Positions 4,929 through 23,257 of a DNA stretch of 32,485 bases are shown here, piece by piece; the first letter of the stretch is position 1, and the number at the start of each line of letters is the position of its first letter. Source of the DNA: Minwuia sp. (lineage in GTDB: Bacteria; Pseudomonadota; Alphaproteobacteria; Minwuiales; Minwuiaceae). The stretch lies in assembly GCA_029213165.1 (NCBI GenBank), contig JARGNO010000046.1, positions 1 through 32,485 on the forward strand. Direction: 5' to 3'. Made by a program: the position numbers and the translations under genes. Below the pieces are notes generated by a model that was not told the DNA's origin, ran no database searches, and saw only the letters and a list, made by a program, of their open reading frames with translations.

Positions 4929-5735
4929 ATGTCCGTGCCGATTGCGTTCGACAGTCTGAAGACCATGAACCTGCAAGCAGTACGCGCGGCGATCCGCAGC
5001 GGACGCTACACCGGGCATACGGCCGGACTGGCCCCCGGCAGGCTGCAGACGAACCTGGCGATCCTGCCGGGCAACATGGCGCAGGACTTCCGTGAATTCT
5101 GCATGCGGAATCCCCGGCCCTGTCCACTTGTCGGCATGACGGGACCTGGTGACCCGAGGATGGTTTCACTGGGCGATATCGACCTGCGCAGTGACGTTCC
5201 CGCCTACAATATCTATCGCAACGGCGAACTGGCGGAGACCGTCTTCGATATTCACGATCACTGGCGGCAGGATCTGGTGGGCTTTGCGCTCGGCTGCTCC
5301 TTCACTTTCGAACATGCGTTGCGGGATGCGGGCATTCCCATGCACCACATCGATGCGGATCGGACGGTGCCGATGTACCGGACCAGCATTCCGACGGAGG
5401 CGGTCGGACCATTTGGTGGTGGCATGGTCGTCTCCATGCGCTGGATCGCGCCGGATCGGGTCGCGGATGCGCAGCGGATCACGTCAGCCTTCACCTGGGC
5501 GCACGGGGCACCAATCCATGTGGGCGATCCGGCTGGCATTGGCATCACCGACCTGAATGTGCCGGACTGGGGCGACCCACCTTGCGGGCCGGAGGGGGTG
5601 GCAGTCTTCTGGGCCTGCGGCGTGACCCCGCAGAATGCATTGACTGATGCACGACCGGATATGTGCATCACCCATACACCGGGCCGGATGCTGATTGCTG
5701 ATCTTGATGACCGGACAGATGCTGTCCTGAACTGA
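4929..5735 (+). CDS. DUF1445 family protein: putative hydro-lyase / D-glutamate cyclase
   Basis: The protein has 268 residues, typical for the family that includes Bacillus YcsI and the catalytic part of mammalian D-glutamate cyclase, which turns D-glutamate into 5-oxo-D-proline. Recognisable family segments are [15 protein letters not shown] near 19, LQTNLAILP near 40, [17 protein letters not shown] near 57, [13 protein letters not shown] near 124, the [17 protein letters not shown] stretch near 158, GDPAGIGI near 199 and [12 protein letters not shown] near 225. A purine-rich GGGGAGGGAG lies just before the ATG. Bacterial members are usually annotated only as putative hydro-lyase and few have been tested. 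The downstream fused oxoprolinase-like gene supports a role in the glutamate/5-oxoproline cycle; this is inference from context. Confidence 0.88.
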
Positions 5736-5840: not shown

Positions 5841-5868
5841 TTGATCCCATCAGGCAGACATGTATGGT
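5841..5868 (+). promoter_or_regulatory. Candidate sigma70-type promoter for the oxoprolinase-like gene
   Basis: TTGATC (5841-5846) and TATGGT (5863-5868) are spaced by 16 bases in the 188-base gap after the DUF1445 gene. Each box matches consensus at four of six positions. The expected start near 5875 would exclude the earliest in-frame ATG at 5864 and fits translation from 5924. No terminator is visible in the gap, so read-through from the DUF1445 gene is also possible. Confidence 0.3.
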
Positions 5869-5923
5869 CCGGAACAGGCGTGCGGCATCTATGGTGGTCG
5901 CGCTGATGAGGGAGATGAGTTCC

Positions 5924-8900
5924 ATGTGGCAGTTCTGGGTCGATCGAGGTGGGACCTTCACCGATATCGTCGGGCGTCGCCCGGACGGATCGGTGGTGAC
6001 GCACAAGGTCCTGTCGGAGAATCCGGAACGCTACCGTGATGCAGCCGTGCAGGGCATTCGCGACCTGCTGGGTCTTGGCCCGGATGATCCCATCCCCTCC
6101 GACCGGATCGAGGCGGTGAAGATGGGCACGACCGTCGCCACCAATGCATTGCTGGAGCGGAAGGGCGACCAGTGCCTGTTTGTCACCAACCGCGGGTTCC
6201 GCGATGTGCTGCGCATTGGCTACCAGAACCGCCCCAACCTGTTCGCGCTGAACATCGAACTGCCGGAGATGCTGTACGACAGCGTGATCGAAGTGCCGGG
6301 GCGCGTCGATGCGGCAGGTGCGGAACTTGAGGCGCTGGACCTGAGTGCCGCACGGCAGGGCCTGCAGGCGGCATTTGATGACGGCATCCGAGCGGCGGCC
6401 ATCGTCTTCATGCACGGTTACCGCTATCCGGCACATGAGAAGGCCGTGGCCGATCTGGCGCGGGAGATCGGTTTCACCCAGGTGTCCACCAGTCATGAGA
6501 CCAGCCCGCTGATGAAGATCGTCAGCCGCGGCGACACCACCGTTGTCGATGCCTACCTGTCGCCGATCCTGCGCCGTTATGTCGATCAGGTGGCCGGTGA
6601 GCTTGGCGACGTGCGGCTGATGTTCATGCAGTCGAACGGCGGCCTGACCGACGCCAACCTGTTCCAGGGCAAGGACGCGATCCTGTCCGGCCCGGCAGGC
6701 GGAGTTGTCGGCATGGTCCGCACGGCGGAGATGGCGGGCTTCGGCAAGGTCATCGGCTTTGACATGGGCGGCACCTCCACCGACGTCTCCCACTATGACG
6801 GCACCTTCGAGCGTGCCTTCGAGACCAATGTCGCCGGTGTCCGGATGCGTGCGCCGATGATGCTGATCCACACTGTCGCGGCGGGTGGTGGCTCGATCCT
6901 GCATTTCGAGGATGGCCGCTATCAGGTCGGTCCGGACTCGGCTGGCGCGAACCCCGGACCAGCCTGTTATCGCAAGGGCGGGCCGCTGGCCGTCACCGAC
7001 TGCAATGTCATGCTGGGCAAGCTGCAGCCGGAGCATTTTCCGCATGTCTTCGGCCCGGATGGTGACGATCCGCTGGACGCCGAGGCGGTTCGCCAGAAGT
7101 TCGGTGAACTGACGGCACGCATCTCGGCGGAAACCGGCGACAGCCGGACACCGGAACAGGTGGCGGCAGGCTTTTTGGAGATCGCGGTCGAGAACATGGC
7201 CAATGCGATCAAGAAGATCTCGATCCAGCGCGGCTATGATGTCTCGAAGTACGTCCTGAACTGCTTTGGCGGGGCAGGGGGACAACATGCCTGTCTGGTC
7301 GCTGACAAGCTTGGCGTCGAGACCGTGCTGCTGCATCCGCATGCCGGTGTGCTGTCTGCCTATGGCATGGGGCTGGCCGACACGCGGGCACTGCGGGAAC
7401 GTGCGGTGGAACTGCCGCTGGACGCTTCAGGCGTGGCGGAGGTGGGCCGCATTCATGACGCGCTGGCCGCAGAGGCCGAGAAGGAACTGCTGGCGCAGGA
7501 GATTTCTGCGGACGTGATCGAGACCCGGCGCGGCGCGCTGGTGCGCTATGACGGCTCCGATACGGCACTCGCCATCGCGTTCGGCAGCCTGGAAGAAACC
7601 AGGCAGGCCTTCGAGACCGCACATCGCCAGCAGTTCGGTTTCACCAGCCCGGAGAAGACCATCATCGTGGAGGCGGCAACGGTCGAGGCCATGGCCCCGG
7701 GTGACGTCATCGACGATCCGGAAAGCGACGGCGTTGCCAATGAGCCGGATCGCATTGCCGAAGTCTCCGCATGGATGGCAGGCAAGGAACACCGTACCGG
7801 CGTCTATGACCGGGAGACGATGCAGCCCGGTGCCACGATCAGTGGCCCGGCGATCGTTCGCGAACCAACATCGACCACCATCATCGAACCGGGCTGGCAG
7901 GCCGAACTGACGGCGAAACGGCATCTCGTCGTCCGCCGTGTCGAGGCGCGCAGCAATGCCCGCGCCATCGGCACCGAGGCTGATCCCGTGATGATGGAGA
8001 TCTTCAACAACCTGTTCATGAACATCGCCGAGCAAATGGGCGTGGTTCTGGAGCGCACCGCCTATTCGGTGAACATCAAGGAACGGCTGGATTTCTCCTG
8101 CGCTGTCTTCGATGCAGGCGGCGAACTGATTGCCAATGCGCCGCACATGCCGGTCCATCTCGGCTCCATGTCCGAATCCATCAAGACAGTGGTGCGGGAG
8201 AACGCGGCGACGATGAAGCCCGGCGACGTCTACATGCTGAACGCGCCCTACAACGGCGGCACCCATCTGCCGGACGTCACCGTGATCGCGCCGGTCTATG
8301 ATGATGCCGGGACGGAAGTGCTGTTCTACACCGCATCACGCGGCCACCACGCCGACATTGGTGGCAAGACGCCGGGTTCAATGCCGCCTGACTCCACGAC
8401 TGTGGAAGAGGAAGGTGTGTTGCTGGACAACGTCTTGCTGGTCGATGGTGGCAAACTGCTTGAACAGGAGACCATCGACCTGCTGAGCTCCGGCAGATAT
8501 CCGGCCCGCAATCCGCACCAGAACATGGCCGATCTGGCCGCGCAGATCGCGGCCTGCGAGAAGGGGGCGCGCGAACTCGGACGCATGGTGGACGACTTCG
8601 GCCTGGACGTGGTGCGCGCCTACATGGGGCACGTGCAGGACAATGCGGAGGAATCCGTGCGTCGCGTCATCGACGTGCTGCACGACGGTGCGTTCAGCTA
8701 TCCGATGGATGATGGCTCCGTCATCCAGGTCAGGGTCAGCATCGACCATGCCGACCGCTCCGCCGTGATCGACTTCACCGGCACCTCGGAGACGCATCCG
8801 ACCAACTACAATGCGCCGACGGCAGTGGCCTATGCGGCCGTGCTCTATGTCTTCCGCTGTCTGGTGGATTCGGAAATACCGCTGAATGGTGGCTGTCTGA

Positions 8901-9508
8901 AGCCGCTGAAGGTGATCATTCCGGAAAAGTCGATGCTGCGTCCGGTCTATCCGGCAGCGGTCGTGGCCGGGAACGTGGAGACCAGCCAGTGCATCACCGA
9001 TTGCCTGTTCGGCGCGCTGGGGGTCATGGCCGCGGCGCAGGGCACGATGAACAACTTCACCTTCGGCAATGAGCGTCACCAGTACTACGAGACCATCTGC
9101 GGCGGGGCAGGGGCCGGGCCGGATTTCGACGGCACCAGCGCAGTGCATACCCACATGACCAACACCCGACTGACCGACCCTGAGGTGCTGGAATTCCGTT
9201 ACCCGGTGATCCTGCAGGATTTCCATGTCCGCAAGGGTTCGGGCGGCAGGGGCGCGCATCGCGGCGGTGACGGCACGGTGCGGCGGATCCTGTTCCGGGA
9301 AGCCATGACCGCCTCCTTCCTCTCCAGCCACCGCAAGGTCGCCCCGTTCGGCCTGAAGGGCGGGGAGGACGGTGACGTGGGCCGCAACTTCGTCGTCCGC
9401 GCCGGTGGCGAGACCGAACAGCGCCCCGGCTGGTCCATCGCCGACCTGAACCCCGGCGACGCCATCATCATCGAAAGCCCGGGAGGTGGTGGTTACGGGG
9501 CGGCGTGA
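5924..9508 (+). CDS. Fused hydantoinase A/B-type ATP-dependent hydrolase (5-oxoprolinase-like)
   Basis: The predicted 1194-residue protein joins both halves of the hydantoinase/oxoprolinase family in one chain, as in eukaryotic 5-oxoprolinase. The HyuA half starts [15 protein letters not shown], continues with [13 protein letters not shown], and has the ATP-binding [11 protein letters not shown] (about residues 280-290) and VAAGGGSI. The HyuB half begins near residue 685 ([12 protein letters not shown]) with [45 protein letters not shown] and the C-terminal [14 protein letters not shown] and ESPGGGGYG. These enzymes open a cyclic amide using ATP: 5-oxoproline, hydantoin or N-methylhydantoin. 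ATG 5924 is chosen from several in-frame starts (5864, 5915) because AGGGAG ends nine bases upstream and the domain begins at once. Substrate is not set by sequence; the upstream DUF1445 gene argues for 5-oxoproline. Confidence 0.93.
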
Positions 9509-9533: not shown

Positions 9534-9833
9534 TCAGTAGCCCTGGAAAAGGAAGTCCAACGCAGCGGATATCTCAGCGAATCTGTCCGAAAGACTTGTG
9601 ACAGGGTTGTGGAGCGAAGAGGCAGGAACGGTCGCTAGGAACTGGGGCATCATCAGATACTGCTTTCCGTCTATACTGAACTCCGGGTTCAGCTTGCGCG
9701 TAGGCAGCGGGGCATTGGATTTCTCGAGCAGTGGCACGACGACACGAGTGCTCATTTCGTCCAGCAGGTCTGCCTGAACATCCAGCAGGAGATTCCCGAT
9801 ACCGGGCCCCGGAAAGACTTCGTAACGCGCCAT
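9534..9833 (-). CDS. ccdB: CcdB-family toxin
   Basis: The protein has 99 residues, close to the 101 of F-plasmid CcdB, and aligns along its length: YEVFPGPGIGNLLLDVQADLLDEMSTRVVVPL (N-terminal sheet), YLMMPQFLATVPASSL in the middle, and a C-terminal helix ending ALDFLFQGY. CcdB binds the GyrA subunit of DNA gyrase and traps cleaved DNA; in the F-plasmid protein the final Trp-Gly-Ile is needed for killing. Here the equivalent end is Gln-Gly-Tyr, so the toxic tip has changed and activity or target may differ. The start codon overlaps the stop of ccdA by one base (TGATG), the normal antitoxin-first coupling. It ends 25 bases from the convergent oxoprolinase-like gene with no clear terminator between. 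Confidence 0.9.
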   Translation of the reverse strand: MARYEVFPGPGIGNLLLDVQADLLDEMSTRVVVPLLEKSNAPLPTRKLNPEFSIDGKQYLMMPQFLATVPASSLHNPVTSLSDRFAEISAALDFLFQGY

Positions 9834-10202: not shown

Positions 10203-10667
10203 TCATCCAGAGCCAGCCTCATCCCCGATCATCCCGATCAGCGCCCGGACGGCGTGGCCGTAGCCGCGGGCGCCCAGACCGGCCAGGACGGCGGTGACCA
10301 CGCCGGACATGTAGGAGTGGTGGTACATCTCCTCGCGGCGATGGATGTTGGAGATGTGGAACTCGATCACCGGGCGGGGGAACATCTTCAGCGCGTCCAT
10401 GATGGCCATGGAGGTGAAGCTGAAGGCGGCCGGGTTGATGATCAGCCCGGCGGCGTTGTCCGTGGCCTCGTGAATCCAGTCGATCAGCTGCTGTTCGGAA
10501 TTGCTCTGGCGGAAGGTGAGGGGGACGTCACCCGCGGCTTCCCGGCAGATCACCTCGATCTCCGCCAGGGTGGTGTGGCCGTAGATCTCCGGCTCGCGGA
10601 TGCCGAGCCGGTTCAGGTTCGGGCCGTTCAGCACGTGAATGCCGGTGAAGTCGCCAATTGATGTCAT
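10203..10667 (-). CDS. Divergent type II 3-dehydroquinate dehydratase-like protein
   Basis: The 154-residue protein has the flavodoxin-like fold motifs of type II dehydroquinases: LNGPNLNRLGIREPEIYG (13-30), RQSNSEQQLIDWIHEA (53-68), IINPAAFSFTSMAIMDAL (76-93) and IEFHISNIHRREE (101-113). Type II enzymes dehydrate 3-dehydroquinate to 3-dehydroshikimate. The lid Arg24, Tyr29, the base-positioning Asn78, and Glu102/His104 are present. The substrate-binding His of the usual THTS motif is Phe84 (SFTS), an unusual change. It lies 35 bases downstream of dctM with a strong GGGGGAGA ribosome binding site, so it belongs to the TRAP transporter operon, not to the usual aroQ-accBC setting. It may be a catabolic paralogue acting on a quinate-like or other ring substrate; that is inference. 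Confidence 0.85.
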   Translation of the reverse strand: MTSIGDFTGIHVLNGPNLNRLGIREPEIYGHTTLAEIEVICREAAGDVPLTFRQSNSEQQLIDWIHEATDNAAGLIINPAAFSFTSMAIMDALKMFPRPVIEFHISNIHRREEMYHHSYMSGVVTAVLAGLGARGYGHAVRALIGMIGDEAGSG

Positions 10668-10702: not shown

Positions 10703-12025
10703 CTACCCGAACTGTCTCGGCAACCAGACAGCGATTTCCGGGAACAGCATCAGGAAGACCAGTACCAGCAGTTCCAGTCCGATGAAGGGCAGGGCGGCGG
10801 CGTATATCTGGGTCAGCCGTATCTCCGGCGGGGCGACGCCCTTCATGATGTAGAGCAGCAGGCCGAAGGGCGGCGTCAGCAAGCTGATCTCCATGGCGAT
10901 CAGCATCATGACCATGACCCAGATCGGGTTCATGCCCAGATTGTCGGCGATCGGCAGGAAGAACGGCAGGGTCAGCAGCGCCATTGACACCTGGTCCATG
11001 AAGGCCCCGAGAAACAGCAGGATCAGCATCATCAGCGCCATGGCGGTGACCGGCGTCAGGTTCAGTCCGCCCACCAGTTGCAGCAGGCCACTTGTGGCAC
11101 CGGAGATCTGCAGCACCTGGGAGAAGGTGAGGGACCCCGCGATGATGAACAGGATCATGACGTTGATCCTGGCCGTTTCCGTCAGGGCCTTCTTCAGCCG
11201 CGTGAAGGTCAATTCGCCGTAGCAGGCGCAGACCAGCAGGGCGGCGACACAGCCCAGCGCCGCCGCTTCCTCCGGTGCCGCGACGCGGAAGAAGATGCTG
11301 CCCACCACCACCAGGAAGATGGTGAACAGCGGCAGCACATCCCGCACGAAGGGTCCCCAGCGGTCCCAGCCATGCGCGGTCTCCGGTTCATCATCCACCG
11401 GGGCGAGGGACGGGTTCATGCGGCACCGCGCCATGACATAGACCACGAACAGGATCGCCATCAGGATGCCGGGCAGGATGCCGGCGATCAGCAGGTCCTT
11501 GATCGACCGCTCCGCCAGGCTGGCCAGCAGCACGGCCAGCGCCGAGGGCGGGATCAGCATGGCAATGCCGCCGACCGCCATGATCGGCCCCATCGCCAGC
11601 TTCGGCTGGTAGCCGCGTTTCAGCATGTCTGGCAGCATCACGCTGCCCAGGATCGCCGTGTTGGCGATGGTGGAGCCGGAGAGGGAGGAGAACACGGTCC
11701 CGCCCGCGATGGAAACGACTGTCAGCCGCCCCGGCACCCGCGCGATCATGCGGTCGATGGCCTTGATCGCGCGGAAGGCGACGCCGGTCTGGAACAGGAT
11801 CTCGCCCATCAGGATGAACAGCGCCACGGGGACGAGGGAAAAACGGGATATGGCGAAGACATACTCGATCGGCATCACCGACAGACCGACCTCGCCCCGC
11901 ATGAAGATGTAGACGCCGACGATATTGGCGGCGAAGAAGGCAAAGACCACGGGCAGACCGAGAAACATCAGCCCGATGACGATGCCCAGCATCATGGCCA
12001 GCGCCCAGTACCATTCCATGATCAT
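10703..12025 (-). CDS. dctM: TRAP transporter large permease, DctM family
   Basis: The 440-residue protein is a 12-segment ion-transporter-superfamily permease. Family hallmarks include LGLPVVFAFFAANIVGVY near the N-terminus, GGTVFSSLSGSTIANTAILGS near 110, GIAMLIPPSALAVLLA near 150 and LLTPPFGLLLYIMKG near 385. It uses the sodium gradient to import an organic acid delivered by the periplasmic binding protein, in complex with DctQ. It lies downstream of dctP and dctQ in the same direction, separated from dctQ by an unusually long 256-base gap holding a hairpin repeat. The start has only a weak GGGA-like site; ATG ATC ATG offers two starts two codons apart. Family is secure; substrate is not predictable. 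Confidence 0.95.
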   Translation of the reverse strand: MIMEWYWALAMMLGIVIGLMFLGLPVVFAFFAANIVGVYIFMRGEVGLSVMPIEYVFAISRFSLVPVALFILMGEILFQTGVAFRAIKAIDRMIARVPGRLTVVSIAGGTVFSSLSGSTIANTAILGSVMLPDMLKRGYQPKLAMGPIMAVGGIAMLIPPSALAVLLASLAERSIKDLLIAGILPGILMAILFVVYVMARCRMNPSLAPVDDEPETAHGWDRWGPFVRDVLPLFTIFLVVVGSIFFRVAAPEEAAALGCVAALLVCACYGELTFTRLKKALTETARINVMILFIIAGSLTFSQVLQISGATSGLLQLVGGLNLTPVTAMALMMLILLFLGAFMDQVSMALLTLPFFLPIADNLGMNPIWVMVMMLIAMEISLLTPPFGLLLYIMKGVAPPEIRLTQIYAAALPFIGLELLVLVFLMLFPEIAVWLPRQFG

Positions 12026-12281
12026 GGCTGCGGGTCCCGGATTGAGAAGCGAGGGGACACAGGTGATCCATGACGCCGCCTGGCGATGATCGGTGCCGCC
12101 CTCACACCACGGCGGGCCCGCACTTGATGCGGGTGCCCACCTTGGAGCGCTTGAGCGGCACCATGGGCTGCCGGGTCAAGCCCGGCAGCGCCGAGGAATA
12201 GGGTGGCCAAGCCTGCGGACATCCGCCCGGACAGCTTGCCCAGGGTCCGCCAGGGGGCAGAAGGAAACTTCATGCCCACGG
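12026..12281. other. Gap between dctQ and dctM holding a palindromic repeat
   Basis: No gene was recognised in this GC-rich gap. GCTGCCGGG (12167-12175) and CCCGGCAGC (12181-12189) form a perfect 9-base stem with a 5-base loop. The centre, CGGGTCAAGCCCG, is the same core as in the hairpins upstream of dctP. It looks like a dispersed intergenic palindrome inserted within the transporter operon; it may alter dctQ versus dctM expression. Confidence 0.7.
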
Positions 12282-12803
12282 TCACAGCCCCTTGCTCACG
12301 CCGGCGTCCGCATCCGGGGCCGCGCCGCCGCGCAGCAGGCGGAACAGGAACTCGATGGCCAGCAGCGTGAAGCAGGTGACGAAGACGCTCAGCAATACCC
12401 ACTCCGGCATGGCGAAATACTTGTGCTGCATCGACTGGAACATCCAGGCGCTGTCCAGGCTGATCCAGCCATAGAACACCAGCACCAGGCAGACAGCGCA
12501 GCCGACAAGGTCCAGCAGACGCTCCAGCGCGCGGGCGAGCGGTAGGGGCAGACTGCCGACCAGCAGATCGACGCGGACGTGGGAACCCTGGCGCAGCACC
12601 CAGGGTGCGCCGAGGAACACGCCCGCGAACAGCAGATACTCGATGACCTCGTTCAGCCCCGACAGGTTGCCCCAGCCGAACAGGCGCAGCATCAGATCGA
12701 TGGAGATCGACAGCGCGAAGCCGCCGACAGTCAGCCCGACCAGCAGGCCAACCAGCCCATAGGCGGCCCCGAAGGCGCGGTCGATGGCGGCGAGGGCAGT
12801 CAT
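12282..12803 (-). CDS. dctQ: TRAP transporter small permease, DctQ family
   Basis: The 173-residue protein has four predicted membrane segments: residues 14-38, 50-68 (with IEYLLFAGVFLGAPW), 90-112 and 133-160. The GSHVRVDLL stretch after the second segment is typical of DctQ proteins. DctQ partners DctM in the inner membrane and is needed for substrate-binding-protein-dependent uptake. It lies 72 bases downstream of dctP. The ribosome binding site is weak. Identification rests on topology, length, the HVRVDLL motif and position between dctP and dctM. Confidence 0.9.
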   Translation of the reverse strand: MTALAAIDRAFGAAYGLVGLLVGLTVGGFALSISIDLMLRLFGWGNLSGLNEVIEYLLFAGVFLGAPWVLRQGSHVRVDLLVGSLPLPLARALERLLDLVGCAVCLVLVFYGWISLDSAWMFQSMQHKYFAMPEWVLLSVFVTCFTLLAIEFLFRLLRGGAAPDADAGVSKGL

Positions 12804-12875
12804 GTCACACGAATTCCGAACCGAAACAGGGGACCGTGCGACACGGCACGGTCCCCCGGATTTCCGCCCTGTCGG

Positions 12876-13859
12876 CTATTCCCTGGCAAACAGCGCACGC
12901 AGCTTCGCCGCATTTGCGGGACTGGTTTCCTCCAGCCCGGCCCAGCCGGCGTCACGCGCGGTATCCAGCCATTTCTTCCGGTCGTCCCCGGTGAAGGTGA
13001 TGATGGTGTACTGCTCCGCCTGTGAGGCCGTAGACTTCTGCACGGCGGTCTTGTCGACGCCGACCGCCTTCCGCTCCATCTGCATGACGATGGTGGAGAT
13101 CAGCGTCCGCGCCTTGTCACTCAACCCGTTCCAGCTCTTCAGGTTCACCAGCACATTGATGTCCGCATCATAGAAACCGGGATCGACGCGTGAGGCTGTG
13201 ACTTCCTCCCAGCCCGGCCGCATCCCGGTGATTGGCCAGCCAAAGCCGCCGACGGTGCCGTTCTCCATCAGGGCATAGATCTGCGCCAGGTTGGAATTCT
13301 GCGTGGTGGCGCCCAGCGCCTTGAAGAAATTGGTGTAGATCGGTGCCACGCGCAGGTGCAGGCCGGTCAGGTCCGGCTTGTCGATGGACTTGCCCTTGCC
13401 GAGGTACAGGTGAAACGGCGTGCCGTAGTGGATACGGCCCAGCGGTTTAAGGTTCTTGTTGCCGTGGATCTCCTCCATCAGCGCCCAGCCGCCGTTGGTG
13501 CGGATCTCGTCCGGTGTCCGCTCCAGCAGTTTCCAGGCATCCGCCTCCGGCACCACGTTCTGGTAGTAGGCACCGGTGCAGTTCACCAGGTCATAGACGC
13601 CCTGTGCCTGCTTCTGCACCATCGTGAAGGGGCTGCCTATGGCCGGTGCGCCGCCCAGGTAGTTGATCTTGACAGTCTTGCCGCCCTGTTCATTGATCTG
13701 TTTCACAATGCTTTCGAAGCGTTTGGAAAAGAACGAATTCTGCGGAAAGCAGCTTGCCGCGACCAGCTCTGTCTGGGCCTGTGCCGAGGTGGCACCGGCA
13801 AATGCGGCAAACCCAAGGGCCGCTGCAGTCACGAGACCGCGAATATCCGGATAGCGCAT
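12876..13859 (-). CDS. dctP: TRAP transporter periplasmic substrate-binding protein, DctP family
   Basis: The 327-residue protein begins MRYPDIRGLVTAAALGFAAF and has a classical Sec signal peptide with probable cleavage after SAQA (about residue 28). Mature parts fit the DctP fold: FESIVKQINEQGGKTVKINYLGG, a substrate-binding FHLYLGKGKS...LTGLHLRV segment with the expected Arg, and GTVGGFGWP. It captures the solute in the periplasm and hands it to DctQM. An in-frame extension to 14033 runs through an intergenic repeat and is rejected: ATG 13859 follows AGGGAGGGG and begins the signal peptide. It heads the TRAP operon. The ligand cannot be read from sequence; a carboxylated compound would be usual. 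Confidence 0.93.
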   Translation of the reverse strand: MRYPDIRGLVTAAALGFAAFAGATSAQAQTELVAASCFPQNSFFSKRFESIVKQINEQGGKTVKINYLGGAPAIGSPFTMVQKQAQGVYDLVNCTGAYYQNVVPEADAWKLLERTPDEIRTNGGWALMEEIHGNKNLKPLGRIHYGTPFHLYLGKGKSIDKPDLTGLHLRVAPIYTNFFKALGATTQNSNLAQIYALMENGTVGGFGWPITGMRPGWEEVTASRVDPGFYDADINVLVNLKSWNGLSDKARTLISTIVMQMERKAVGVDKTAVQKSTASQAEQYTIITFTGDDRKKWLDTARDAGWAGLEETSPANAAKLRALFARE

Positions 13860-13942
13860 TGGCTTCCCCTCCCTGTTTTTTTCTGTTCCCAAAACTATGA
13901 ACAGGGGCAGGGGGCAGCGCAAGGGCGCGGCGTGGTGAGCTC

Positions 13943-14009
13943 TGGGGCAGTTTGATGCTACCTCTCCACTCACCTCACTCACGACGCTCTCGGGCTTGAC
14001 CCGAGAGCC
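13943..14009. repeat. Intergenic repeat copy A with perfect hairpin
   Basis: This 67-base unit recurs at 14080-14146 with two mismatches. It ends in GCTCTCGGG (13986-13994), loop CTTGA, CCCGAGAGC (14000-14008), a perfect 9-base stem. It lies 84 bases upstream of dctP, in the 343-base gap (13860-14202) in which no gene was recognised. The hairpin core is shared with the dctQ-dctM gap. Confidence 0.9.
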
Positions 14010-14042
14010 CAGTCTCCCACGCTTGCGCGGCACTCCTGGGTA

Positions 14043-14059
14043 CCCGGGTCGAGCCCGGG
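14043..14059. repeat. Short palindrome between the two repeat copies
   Basis: CCCGGG (14043-14048) and CCCGGG (14054-14059) flank TCGAG, so the strand can fold as a 6-base stem. The surrounding pattern, with GGGCATGGCG after the stem, resembles small palindromic intergenic elements common in alphaproteobacteria. Confidence 0.6.
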
Positions 14060-14079
14060 CATGGCGCGTAGGGGGGAGA

Positions 14080-14146
14080 TGGGGCGGTTTGATGCTACCT
14101 CTCCACTCACCTCACTCACGACGCTCTCGGGCTTGACCCGGGAGCC
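14080..14146. repeat. Intergenic repeat copy B
   Basis: Second copy of the 67-base unit at 13943-14009, shifted by exactly 137 bases, differing at two positions (one in the hairpin arm, CCCGGGAGC for CCCGAGAGC). It ends 56 bases from the stop of the TauD-like gene. Together the copies make a direct repeat that could delete or expand by recombination. Confidence 0.9.
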
Positions 14147-14202
14147 GATCTTGATGGCCGCAGCGCAACGCAAGCAGGCGCCCGGAAACGGATACCTCCG
14201 CG

Positions 14203-15057
14203 TCAGGCGTCCAGCGGTTCACCTTCCAGCGTGATGCGGTGCATCTCCCGCCGTGCGCCGTGATAGTCATTGACGGCGTAGTGCCAGCTTGCCCGGTTGT
14301 CCCAGAAGGCGATGGAGCCCGGGGCCCATTGGAACCGGTAGGTATGTTCCGGCCGGGCTGCGTGGGCATAGAGCATGTCCAGCGGCGGCTGGCTTTCTTC
14401 CTTGGTCCAGCCCTCGAAGTGCAGGGTGAATCCGCCGTTGACGTACAGGGCATGCCTGCCGCTGATGGGATGGCGGATGATGACCGGATGAACCGCGTCC
14501 TGCTGTGCCAGTTCCGCATTGCCGAGACGGCCCTTGTATTCCGACCGCCGGTCAGCCTGTTCGCCGAAACGATGACGGCTGGAATGGACGGCGCGCATAC
14601 CGTGCAGCGTCCGCTTCAGACCGTCGGAGAGGCTGTCATAGGCCGCGTACATGTTGGCAAACAGCGTGTCGCCACCGCGTGTCGGCGTTTCCCGCGCCAG
14701 CAGCATCGATCCCATTGCCGGAATCTGGTCATAGGAATGGTCAGTATGCCAGCCACCACCGATATTGGCGGTCTGGTCCGCTTCCTTGACGACCAGGGCG
14801 ACCTTGTCGTGGGTGGGCAGGCGGGCGAAGAAGCGGTTGACGTTGATCTCTCCGAAAGCCTCCGCCGCAGTGATGTGCTGGTCAGGCGTAAGCTTCTGGT
14901 CACGGAAGAACAGGACGCAGTGATCGCCCAGGGCCTGACGCAGGACGCCGACGGTGTTGCTGCTCAGGTCATTGGCCAGATCGATGCCATGCACGAATGC
15001 ACCGACACCTCCGGGGCTGGGTTCGATATGAAACGGCTGTGCTGCTGTGTCGGCCAT
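14203..15057 (-). CDS. TauD/TfdA-family Fe(II)/2-oxoglutarate-dependent dioxygenase
   Basis: The 284-residue protein is the usual length for the TauD family. The iron-binding facial triad is visible: His104 and Asp106 in GGGWHTDHSYD and His259 in NRASWHYAVNDY. Arg274 in MHRITLEGE lies 15 residues after the distal His, as the 2-oxoglutarate-binding Arg does in TauD. Such enzymes hydroxylate taurine, alkyl sulfates, chlorophenoxyacetates or related acids, often releasing sulfite, sulfate or an alcohol. A GGGAGAG site precedes the ATG. It is 343 bases upstream of dctP on the same strand, so shared function with the TRAP transporter is plausible though a separate transcript is likely. No sulfonate ABC transporter is nearby; substrate is unknown. 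Confidence 0.93.
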   Translation of the reverse strand: MADTAAQPFHIEPSPGGVGAFVHGIDLANDLSSNTVGVLRQALGDHCVLFFRDQKLTPDQHITAAEAFGEINVNRFFARLPTHDKVALVVKEADQTANIGGGWHTDHSYDQIPAMGSMLLARETPTRGGDTLFANMYAAYDSLSDGLKRTLHGMRAVHSSRHRFGEQADRRSEYKGRLGNAELAQQDAVHPVIIRHPISGRHALYVNGGFTLHFEGWTKEESQPPLDMLYAHAARPEHTYRFQWAPGSIAFWDNRASWHYAVNDYHGARREMHRITLEGEPLDA

Positions 15058-15359: not shown

Positions 15360-16562
15360 TCACTCCAGTTTCCCCCGCAGCGCCGCAAGCCGCCGTTGTG
15401 TAATCTCCAGATCACGTTGCAGCCCTGGATGCGACGGATTGCTCGTCGCAAGTGCTTCCGCAATCGGCAGGCTTCTTTCGTAGAGTTCAACCGCCCGCAG
15501 GATATCCCGAGCGCGTTCTTCCAGATCACCCAGCCGCTCCAGACTGACCGAAAGGTCCCGCTGCGCCTGAGCCGACCCCGGATTGGACGCCGCAAGCTGC
15601 TCCCGTACCTCCAGAGACCGTTCATGAGCCGCCCGCGCCGCAGCCAGATCACCCGCCTGAACCTCGACATCACCCAGCCGCTCCAGACTGACCGAAAGGT
15701 CCCGCTGCGCCTCCGCCGACCCCGGATTGGACGCCGCAAGCTGCTCCAGTAACTCCAGAGACCGTTCAAGAGCCGCCCGCGCCACACCGATGTTCCCTGA
15801 AACGAGGTGCAGTTGCCCGGACTCAGTATCGGCAATGAACATCTCCCGACCACTGGAAGCGGCTCTCCGGATTGTAGGAAGCAGATCAAGTGCGCCTACC
15901 AGATCACCTGCAATTCGCCTCTGGCGCGCCAGCAGGACTGCCATCCAGAAGTCATCCGGCTGCAGGTGATGAGCCTCCTCATAGGCGTGCAGGGCGCGGG
16001 CCGTGTCGAACCCGGCAACCAGATCACCGATCCGACGCCACTTCGCGGCACCTTCAGCGGTGGCGTTGCGTGCGTCCTGCTCCAGGCGCGCGACGGCATT
16101 TTCAACATTGCCATTTTCTGACGTGAGTTCCTCAACTGCAGCGCTGGCTTCAGGGTCAGGGTCGGCCACGAGATCCCGGACCGCATCTTTGCGCCGTTCC
16201 TGCTGCTCAGGGCTTGGCGCATCTCCCTCGGCCAATGCGTCGAGTTTCGCCTCGATACGTGCCTGTCTCGCTGCCAATTCCATGAGTTGTCTTGCGGTCG
16301 CCGGAGCATCTGGTTCATCGAACAGCTTTGAGACTGTCGCAATCGGGTCGGCGAACAGTTGTACAATGAACCTGTGACCCTGCGCAGTGTTCTTCACCAG
16401 TTCAGCGCCCTGATTGGCGAGCAAGAAGAGAACCAGACATACGACAACCAACCGTGCCCACCTCGGCAAGCGCCTGGCAGGTTCCTTCAGACCGTCGGGC
16501 AATTGCCTGATCCAGAAGCCATCCTGCCGAGTGGTCGTCTGTTGCAAGTCCTGATGCGCCAT
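15360..16562 (-). CDS. Membrane-anchored tetratricopeptide-repeat protein
   Basis: The 400-residue protein has one membrane segment at about residues 36-52 after a short N-terminal tail, a charged helical region (85-170), and TPR-like helices from about 172 to the end. The C-terminal part holds three repeats of about 48 residues (near 263, 311 and 359) sharing ERSLE..EQLAASNPGSA and AQRDLSVSLERLGD. The first two are almost identical in DNA as well as protein, which points to recent duplication. TPR arrays bind partner proteins; repeats of this LAxSNP...AQRDLSVS type occur in signalling and conflict-related multidomain proteins (family knowledge), but no enzymatic domain is present here. The orientation of the repeats relative to the membrane is uncertain. 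No function can be assigned. Confidence 0.8.
   Translation of the reverse strand: MAHQDLQQTTTRQDGFWIRQLPDGLKEPARRLPRWARLVVVCLVLFLLANQGAELVKNTAQGHRFIVQLFADPIATVSKLFDEPDAPATARQLMELAARQARIEAKLDALAEGDAPSPEQQERRKDAVRDLVADPDPEASAAVEELTSENGNVENAVARLEQDARNATAEGAAKWRRIGDLVAGFDTARALHAYEEAHHLQPDDFWMAVLLARQRRIAGDLVGALDLLPTIRRAASSGREMFIADTESGQLHLVSGNIGVARAALERSLELLEQLAASNPGSAEAQRDLSVSLERLGDVEVQAGDLAAARAAHERSLEVREQLAASNPGSAQAQRDLSVSLERLGDLEERARDILRAVELYERSLPIAEALATSNPSHPGLQRDLEITQRRLAALRGKLE
15525..15639. repeat. DNA copy of TPR repeat unit (second protein repeat)
   Basis: This 115-base stretch is nearly identical to 15669-15783, exactly 144 bases (48 codons) away, within the TPR gene. Only a few positions differ, so the duplication is recent or kept uniform by recombination. 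Confidence 0.85.
15669..15783. repeat. DNA copy of TPR repeat unit (first protein repeat)
   Basis: Partner of 15525-15639, encoding the first near-identical TPR unit of the membrane-anchored protein. Expansion or contraction in 144-base steps would keep the frame. Confidence 0.85.
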
Positions 16563-22051: not shown

Positions 22052-23257
22052 TCAGACCCGCTCCAGAACCACCGCGATGCCCTGCCCGACGCCGATGCAC
22101 ATGGTGCAGAGCGCGTAGCGGCCGCCGGTGCGGTGCAACTGGTTGACGGCTGTCAGGATCAGGCGCGCACCGCTGGCACCCAGCGGATGGCCCAGCGCGA
22201 TGGCACCACCATGCGGGTTCACGTGGTCCGCATCATCGGGCAGGCCGAGCTGACGGGTCACGGCCAGGGCCTGGGCGGCGAAGGCCTCGTTCAGTTCGAT
22301 GACATCCATATCTCCGATCGTCAGGCCCACCTGCGCCAGCACCTTCTCCGATGCTGGTGCCGGGCCAAAGCCCATGATCCGGGGCGGCACGCCTGCGGTC
22401 GCCATGCCGAGTATGCGCGCGCGCGGCGTCAGGCCGTTGCGGGCCGCCGCAGCTTCGGTTGCGATCAGCATGGCGCAGGCGCCGTCGTTCACGCCGGAAG
22501 CGTTGCCCGCCGTGACGGAGCCACCATCCCGGAACGGCGCGGGCAGCTTGGCCAGTGCCTCCAGCGTGGTACCGCCGCGAATATGCTCGTCGTCGGCGAC
22601 AATGACCGGATCACCCTTGCGCTGCGGGATCGTCACCGCCGCGATCTCTTCCGCGAAGATGCCATCCGCCTGTGACTTCGCCGCGCGCTGCTGGCTGCGG
22701 TAGGCAAAGGCGTCCTGATCCTCGCGCTTGATCTGGTAGTCGGCGGCCACGTTCTCCGCCGTCTCCGGCATGGAGTCGACGCCATACATCTTCTTCATCT
22801 GCGGATTGACGAAGCGCCAGCCGATGGTGGTGTCATACATCTGCGCGGAGCGGGAAAAGGCCGTGTCTGCCTTGCCCATGACAAAGGGCGCGCGGGTCAT
22901 GCTCTCGACCCCGCCACCGATCATCAGTTCAGCCTCGCCTGCCTTCACCGCGCGGGCTGCCGTACCGACAGCATCCATGGAAGAACCGCAGAGGCGGTTG
23001 ATGGTGGACCCGGGCACGCTCTCCGGCAGCCCGGCCAGCAGCGCGGCCATGCGGGCAACGTTGCGGTTGTCCTCGCCCGCCTGATTGGCGCAGCCGTAGA
23101 TCACGTCATCCACAGCCTCCCAATCGACAGCGGTCAGCTTCTCCTTCAGCGCCTTCAGCGGATGGGCCGCGAGATCGTCCGCACGAACGCTCTTCAGCCC
23201 GCCGCCAAAGCGCCCGAACGGCGTCCGTATTGCCTCACACACAAACGCTTCAGCCAT
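22052..23257 (-). CDS. pcaF: Thiolase, 3-oxoadipyl-CoA thiolase (PcaF)-like
   Basis: The 401-residue protein is a standard-length thiolase. The nucleophile is Cys90 in NRLCGSSMDAVG; His357 in GGAIALGHPLGASGAR and Cys387 in CTMCIGVGQG complete the catalytic set. Similarity to PcaF is strong at several segments: AIRTPFGRFGG, YGCANQAGEDNRNVARM, and DTTIGWRFVNPQMKKMYGVDSMPETAENVA. PcaF cleaves 3-oxoadipyl-CoA to succinyl-CoA and acetyl-CoA in the beta-ketoadipate and phenylacetate pathways; a general acetyl-CoA acetyltransferase role cannot be ruled out. AGAGGAA precedes the start. No other pca or paa gene is nearby. It lies 52 bases downstream of the fic gene. Confidence 0.88.
   Translation of the reverse strand: MAEAFVCEAIRTPFGRFGGGLKSVRADDLAAHPLKALKEKLTAVDWEAVDDVIYGCANQAGEDNRNVARMAALLAGLPESVPGSTINRLCGSSMDAVGTAARAVKAGEAELMIGGGVESMTRAPFVMGKADTAFSRSAQMYDTTIGWRFVNPQMKKMYGVDSMPETAENVAADYQIKREDQDAFAYRSQQRAAKSQADGIFAEEIAAVTIPQRKGDPVIVADDEHIRGGTTLEALAKLPAPFRDGGSVTAGNASGVNDGACAMLIATEAAAARNGLTPRARILGMATAGVPPRIMGFGPAPASEKVLAQVGLTIGDMDVIELNEAFAAQALAVTRQLGLPDDADHVNPHGGAIALGHPLGASGARLILTAVNQLHRTGGRYALCTMCIGVGQGIAVVLERV

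Follow-up and report, generated by a model that had tools for sequence, protein, structure and literature searches.

The window, meaning the whole analysed stretch of 32,485 nucleotides from Minwuia sp., carries on its minus strand a run of five genes that ends in a paralogue of type II dehydroquinase (DHQ; 10203..10667, minus strand). The run is headed by a TauD/TfdA-type dioxygenase gene (14203..15057, minus strand; PF02668, 220.6 bits), whose product scores 240 bits against the taurine dioxygenase equivalog, below the cut-off of 313. It continues on the same strand with the genes for the TRAP solute-binding protein DctP (12876..13859; PF03480, 59.6 bits), the small permease DctQ (12282..12803; PF04290, 75.5 bits) and the large permease DctM (10703..12025; PF06808, 257 bits), so the three components expected of a TRAP transporter occur together. 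An earlier, sequence-only reading had already placed a TRAP transporter and a TauD-like dioxygenase near the dehydroquinase, and both indeed share its strand, which that reading did not give. Intergenic gaps measure 343 bp between TauD and DctP, 256 bp between DctQ and DctM, and 35 bp between dctM and DHQ; the first two are long, and a single transcript for the entire run is a plausible prediction.

Several other features surround this run. A 54-base sequence occurs in two copies in the interval that separates the TauD-type gene from dctP (13850-14210, minus strand). A TPR-repeat protein of 400 aa is encoded at 15360-16562 (minus strand), and its counterpart at the same-genus locus L034 (1784-3529, 581 aa) has more repeats. 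Downstream of the dehydroquinase lies a CcdB-type toxin gene (9534-9833, minus strand; PF01845, 97 bits). Genes for a fused hydantoinase/oxoprolinase-type protein (5864-9508, plus strand) and a D-glutamate cyclase-type hydro-lyase (4929-5735, plus strand) are conserved convergent neighbours in the genus, and a second TRAP permease lies beside the oxoprolinase in two same-genus genomes, G002 and G004.

The dehydroquinase ORF starts with an ATG at 10667, has a purine-rich ribosome site and encodes 154 aa. Its product matches PF01220 with 170.1 bits (cut-off 23.3) and NCBIfam PRK05395.1-3 with 186.8 bits (cut-off 171). Against the aroQ equivalog TIGR01088 it reaches 165.0 bits, below the cut-off of 169.85, while the other DHQ copy of the genome scores 200.6. 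The predicted structure (pLDDT 88.9) has the type II dehydroquinase fold, and the best PDB match among those listed is the Streptomyces coelicolor enzyme (1d0i; Z 23.3, rmsd 1.7, 147 residues aligned, 51% identity). All 50 matches listed in the structure search are type II dehydroquinases, and the fold is thus uninformative beyond the family level. We place the protein in the type II 3-dehydroquinate dehydratase family, with dehydration of 3-dehydroquinate as its putative activity.

Residue numbers shift by a uniform 3 between the Mycobacterium tuberculosis enzyme (Mtb DHQ2) and that of the window, and the S. coelicolor alignment gives the same correspondence. Asn75, His81, Asp88', His101, Ser103, Arg108 and Arg112 thereby correspond to N78, F84, D91, H104, S106, R111 and Y115. 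N17, R24, Y29, N78, D91, E102 and H104 are all present. The sequence-only reading had pointed to the conserved Tyr29, Asn78, Glu102 and His104 and to a Phe in place of the THTS histidine, and on both points it was correct: residue 84 is Phe within an SFTS motif (codon TTC, 10416..10418, minus strand). Two features go beyond that reading, namely Tyr115 (codon TAC, 10323..10325, minus strand) at the position of Arg112, and Lys94 (codon AAG, 10386..10388, minus strand), which lies three residues after Asp91 and is invariant among the Phe84 enzymes described below. In Mtb DHQ2, His81 and Arg112 hold the C5 hydroxyl of the substrate and Asp88' holds the C4 hydroxyl (PMC6011038). Instead of the His/Arg pair the window's enzyme contains F84 and Y115, and both C5-hydroxyl ligands are replaced, not just one. 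Phe occurs at the His81 position in none of the aligned solved relatives of P0001 (three hits) or L120 (five hits), all of which have His. In a study in which 38 enzymes were assayed, His81 and Arg112 are not mentioned in the abstract, the first half of the Results or the Discussion (PMC4314829).

The two replacements occur together throughout a large group of sequences. Among the 150 unique DHQ sequences fetched, which are no random sample, positions 84 and 115 read F/Y in 88, F/H in 12, H/R in 47, T/R in two and M/R in one; Phe84 is never combined with Arg115, and His84 never occurs without it. As the sets were split by residue 84, the perfect separation at that position is by construction, but position 115 also separates them completely, with its neighbour 114 next best. 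Lys94 is present in 100 of the 100 unique F-type sequences and in 10 of the 47 H-type sequences, while N17, R24, Y29, N78, D91, E102, H104 and R111 are each found in 100 of 100 F-type sequences. A scan for related loci, from which the best 80 of 93 confirmed loci were kept, gave F84/Y115/K94 in all 80. For K94 and Y115 this count is partly by construction, since the scan seeds included stretches with these residues; F84 was absent from every seed, and its presence in 80 of 80 kept loci can be ascribed neither to chance nor to sequencing error. Of these best 80 of 93 loci, that of a MAG titled Minwuia thermotolerans is, among named relatives, the closest to the window, with 94% identity in DHQ.

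A phylogeny of the Phe84-type proteins, which had been proposed as a check, revealed a single origin. When 92 DHQ rows were placed in a tree without columns 84 and 115, which rests on few columns with a bootstrap that had not settled, a single branch (support 99/89) separated all 47 F rows from the others, corresponding to one F-H change. The F/Y sequences make up the main group, and the F/H sequences mostly form its sister group. The closest companion of the window's enzyme in this tree is a same-genus protein, followed by proteins from Roseobacteraceae, Paracoccaceae and Phyllobacteriaceae. Furthermore, at least two type II DHQ copies are encoded in each of the 21 F-type genomes of the class sample that were typed by residue, which came from the stronger matches (G266 may be another). 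The window's genome follows this pattern. Another contig carries a canonical H84/R115 aroQ, as the sequence-only reading had anticipated, beside an ORF that we assume to be accB; the F84 copy is thus an extra one.

The genomic surroundings of the F84 enzymes point to a catabolic role. QuiC is 3-dehydroshikimate dehydratase. In 64 of the 80 loci, some of which are shortened by contig ends, DctM lies directly upstream of the F84-DHQ. An AroE resembling quinate/shikimate dehydrogenase is found in 50 of the 80 and a QuiC-like gene in 43, with either of them in 51. A GntR regulator is present in 64 of the 80, and TctC was also seen. In addition, a family of ~230-aa proteins that neither Pfam nor NCBIfam recognises recurs in 13 of the 80 loci (for example L122, about 12180-12849, and L092, 9493-10188, which are 34% identical over 178 residues). 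The AroE representative L085 scores above the PRK12549 cut-off and matches 2nlo with 270 bits and 3jyo, a PDB entry named quinate/shikimate dehydrogenase, with 269, although with 286 bits it misses the 515 required by PRK14027, the quinate/shikimate dehydrogenase equivalog. The QuiC representative L079 gives a full-length match of 702 bits to NF042435 and aligns end to end, with 623 bits, to 5hmq, which we take to be Pseudomonas putida QuiC1 although the entry itself is named 4-hydroxyphenylpyruvate dioxygenase. None of the 387 genomes of the class sample and none of the 49 named F84 genomes has a match that reaches the 1200 bits set as the curated cut-off of NF042435, and the name QuiC consequently rests on full-length similarity.

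This association extends from loci to genomes. A QuiC-like gene scoring >400 bits is present in 16 of 21 F-type and in 20 of 366 other genomes (Fisher p 1.3e-14, a value overstated by the relatedness of the genomes), and 10 of the 13 families that have the F-type include a QuiC-like genome. Among the named F84 genomes, the QuiC profile finds a match with an E-value of at most 1e-80 in 40 of 49, in a search that covered the loci other than 28 Microvirga loci, L112, L113 and L045; some of these matches are partial, and the piece from G424, which spans only positions 317-625, may be HPPD. Four Thalassospira genomes are among the 40, and there QuiC lies away from the F84 gene. Seven F/H-type loci are flanked, to a distance of about 9 kb, by neither QuiC nor AroE nor TRAP matches, and for five of the seven (G110, G398, G337, G322 and G336) QuiC is located elsewhere in the genome. 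Three QuiC-AroE-TRAP clusters (L175, L176 and L191) have no dehydroquinase nearby; in two of the genomes concerned, G110 and G336, an F/H-type dehydroquinase occurs elsewhere, and the third is G266. QuiC, AroE or TRAP was nearby in 0 of 19 non-F control loci, a biased set that was hand-picked from the upper score list with loci seen beside QuiC left out (the twentieth, G336, proved to be F-type). Counted from the QuiC side, every match >400 bits being taken, the class sample of 387 genomes holds 38 QuiC-like genes in 36 genomes; a DHQ within ~9 kb is of the F-type for 10 of them and of the H/R-type for six, and 22 lack one, some of the stretches being truncated where a contig ends. That QuiC loci hold either type suggests 3-dehydroquinate as the substrate of both, and F- and H/R-type enzymes appear to serve the same step.

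In G006, a genome of the same genus, F84-DHQ, pcaH, pcaG and pcaB are consecutive, all three pca genes scoring above their curated cut-offs; a member of the ~230-aa family also ends this run. The window itself encodes a PcaF-type 3-oxoadipyl-CoA thiolase (22052..23257, minus strand; TIGR02430, 713.5 bits vs a cut-off of 597), the last beta-ketoadipate step, although the gene is not adjacent to DHQ and is circumstantial evidence. Elsewhere in the same genome, at C58, an AroE-like gene, pcaH and pcaG form a run; pcaG (234 bits) and pcaH (338 bits) exceed their cut-offs and, together with pcaF, show that genes of the beta-ketoadipate route are present. The AroE-like protein at C58, a second one in this genome, lies below the cut-off of every dehydrogenase model among the 25 of 28 matches listed (PRK12549, 114.8 vs 235). 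A profile search of the window's genome for QuiC returned an HPPD-like stretch and weak pieces only; the best match, of 152 bits, covers profile positions 292-502 in an HPPD-like frame that runs off the contig end. The membrane quinate dehydrogenase TIGR03074 reaches 118 bits there against a cut-off of 833. With QuiC absent from this search and both AroE-like and TIGR03074 matches under their cut-offs, no gene of the window's genome can be assigned to the steps before and after DHQ.

The sequence-only reading had also tied the dehydroquinase to the TRAP operon and named conservation of the gene neighbourhood as a check. The layout is indeed shared by two same-genus genomes: G001 (locus L034) has the same TauD-TRAP-DHQ arrangement, and G005 (L035) has it with an extra 212-aa ORF between dctM and DHQ and with the TauD match truncated where the contig begins. 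Three members of the genus carry an intact DHQ, namely the window's genome, G001 (94%) and G005 (79%). On the other hand, TauD-DctPQM is retained in G002 (88-97% identity), where dctM is followed not by a DHQ but by a CcdB-like gene 72% identical to that of the window, and G004 has fragmentary TRAP genes and lacks DHQ. The link between the dehydroquinase and the adjacent transporter is therefore loose. The transporter is also of a different type from that of most F84 loci. The nearest solved structure to the window's DctP is 4mnc/4mni (189 bits), presumably Polaromonas Bpro_4736 with benzoylformate, while the DctP type usual beside F84 enzymes, as in L042, is closest among solved proteins to 4pf6 (294 bits). 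Among the loci compared, the window's DctP type adjoins F84 dehydroquinases in its own genus only. Its relatives at 44-46% identity lie on a Sagittula and a Sulfitobacter plasmid amid cupin, fumarylacetoacetate hydrolase family and AMP-binding genes, in clusters that look like aromatic acid breakdown.

From these observations we favour, as the probable though far from certain explanation, a working 3-dehydroquinate dehydratase that belongs to a distinct, mostly catabolic clade and is kept beside the housekeeping AroQ to feed the protocatechuate/beta-ketoadipate route. Such an enzyme would convert 3-dehydroquinate to 3-dehydroshikimate and water, a step that leads on to protocatechuate and, beyond it, into the beta-ketoadipate pathway. 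The enolising Tyr29, the lid Arg24, the acid His104, Asn17, Asn78, Glu102, the trans Asp91 and Arg111 would act as in other family members; with the catalytic residues kept, the chemistry should be unchanged. At the C5 hydroxyl, His and Arg have given way to Phe and Tyr (to Phe and His in most of the sister group). Lys94 is located three residues past Asp91, whose Mtb equivalent reaches into the active site of the neighbouring subunit, and it may for that reason supply, from the neighbouring subunit, the positive charge lost with Arg. As F84 relatives occur mostly in bacteria that apparently degrade the plant acid quinate, the window's DHQ is probably a breakdown enzyme rather than part of a new pathway, and its copy most likely keeps 3-dehydroquinate dehydratase activity and feeds protocatechuate breakdown. 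The catabolic role suggested by the sequence-only reading, as opposed to shikimate synthesis, thus gains support from the QuiC-like and AroE-like neighbours and from the pca run of G006. Its proposal of an unknown compound, although not disproved, becomes unnecessary, as the usual partners of the clade are a quinate/shikimate-type AroE and a QuiC-like protein and the F84-DHQ of G006 heads pcaHGB.

The main rival of a catabolic 3-dehydroquinate dehydratase is an enzyme for an altered substrate, in which the F84/Y115/K94 clade would act on another 3-oxo cyclohexane carboxylate, with the C5 hydroxyl missing, inverted or substituted, delivered by the TRAP transporter. The selectivity of the change fits this idea: position 115 is the only other fully separating one, and 84 and 115 are precisely the C5-hydroxyl ligands (PMC6011038), lost together while the residues for the C4 hydroxyl, the carboxylate and catalysis are kept. 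Loci such as those on Ensifer pT173c and Sagittula p3 combine TRAP and F84-DHQ with no annotated AroE or QuiC nearby. However, AroE-like or QuiC-like genes accompany the enzyme in 51 of the 80 loci, QuiC-profile matches are found in 40 of the 49 genomes, and some QuiC loci of similar layout contain H/R enzymes, so that we consider an altered substrate unlikely. A bolder version, which we hold to be quite improbable, would make the clade substrate-switched, dehydrating a C5-altered 3-dehydroquinate analogue and giving ring acids of plants or algae a second way into protocatechuate breakdown; its purest form would be the TRAP-TauD-DHQ operon of the window's genus, where QuiC is lacking.

The remaining alternatives concern the window's copy itself. 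In this genus it could be a horizontally acquired passenger, perhaps active, that ends a TRAP operon for another aromatic acid and works outside that uptake system. Its nearest tree rows beyond the genus come from Roseobacteraceae, Paracoccaceae and Phyllobacteriaceae, where the enzyme adjoins a different TRAP family; G002 and G004 lack the DHQ, the 212-aa ORF of G005 separates it from dctM, and the plasmid-borne DctP relatives sit in apparent aromatic-degradation clusters. Its intactness in three genomes of the genus and its position in the window, with a ribosome site 35 bp after dctM, speak against this, and we regard the passenger origin as rather doubtful. Loss of catalysis, or a regulatory function, could be imagined from the absence of Arg112, which has been proposed to lower the pKa of the catalytic Tyr together with Arg108 (PMC6011038). 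However, a dead enzyme would hardly keep the eight residues that are invariant in all 100 F-type sequences, which makes this reading extremely improbable.

Compared with canonical AroQ (S. coelicolor 1d0i and Mtb DHQ2), the window's enzyme shares fold, length, catalytic Tyr, lid Arg, acid His, the carboxylate-binding Asn and Ser, and the trans Asp, but differs in His to Phe84, Arg to Tyr115, the invariant Lys94 and its TIGR01088 score. The QuiC-like and AroE-like genes of quinate/shikimate catabolic clusters are the usual neighbours of the F84 clade in other genomes, whereas QuiC is missing from the window's genome, which has a TRAP transporter of another type. The six H/R enzymes near QuiC (L162, L167, L169, L179, L182 and L188) have a similar neighbourhood and presumably catalyze the same reaction, but contain H84/R115, with Lys94 in one of the six. 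Among the titles and abstract openings listed in a search of the open-access literature, with most subscription journals outside its scope, none described a Phe/Tyr dehydroquinase clade or a TRAP-linked one.

Type II dehydroquinase has been studied extensively and is a drug target. A large natural clade that lacks both C5-hydroxyl ligands, retains the other residues and contains an invariant Lys constitutes a ready experiment on the roles of His81 and Arg112. In addition, the pair of residues at positions 84 and 115 may provide a simple sequence test that separates housekeeping copies from mostly catabolic ones, which currently receive the same name from annotation pipelines.
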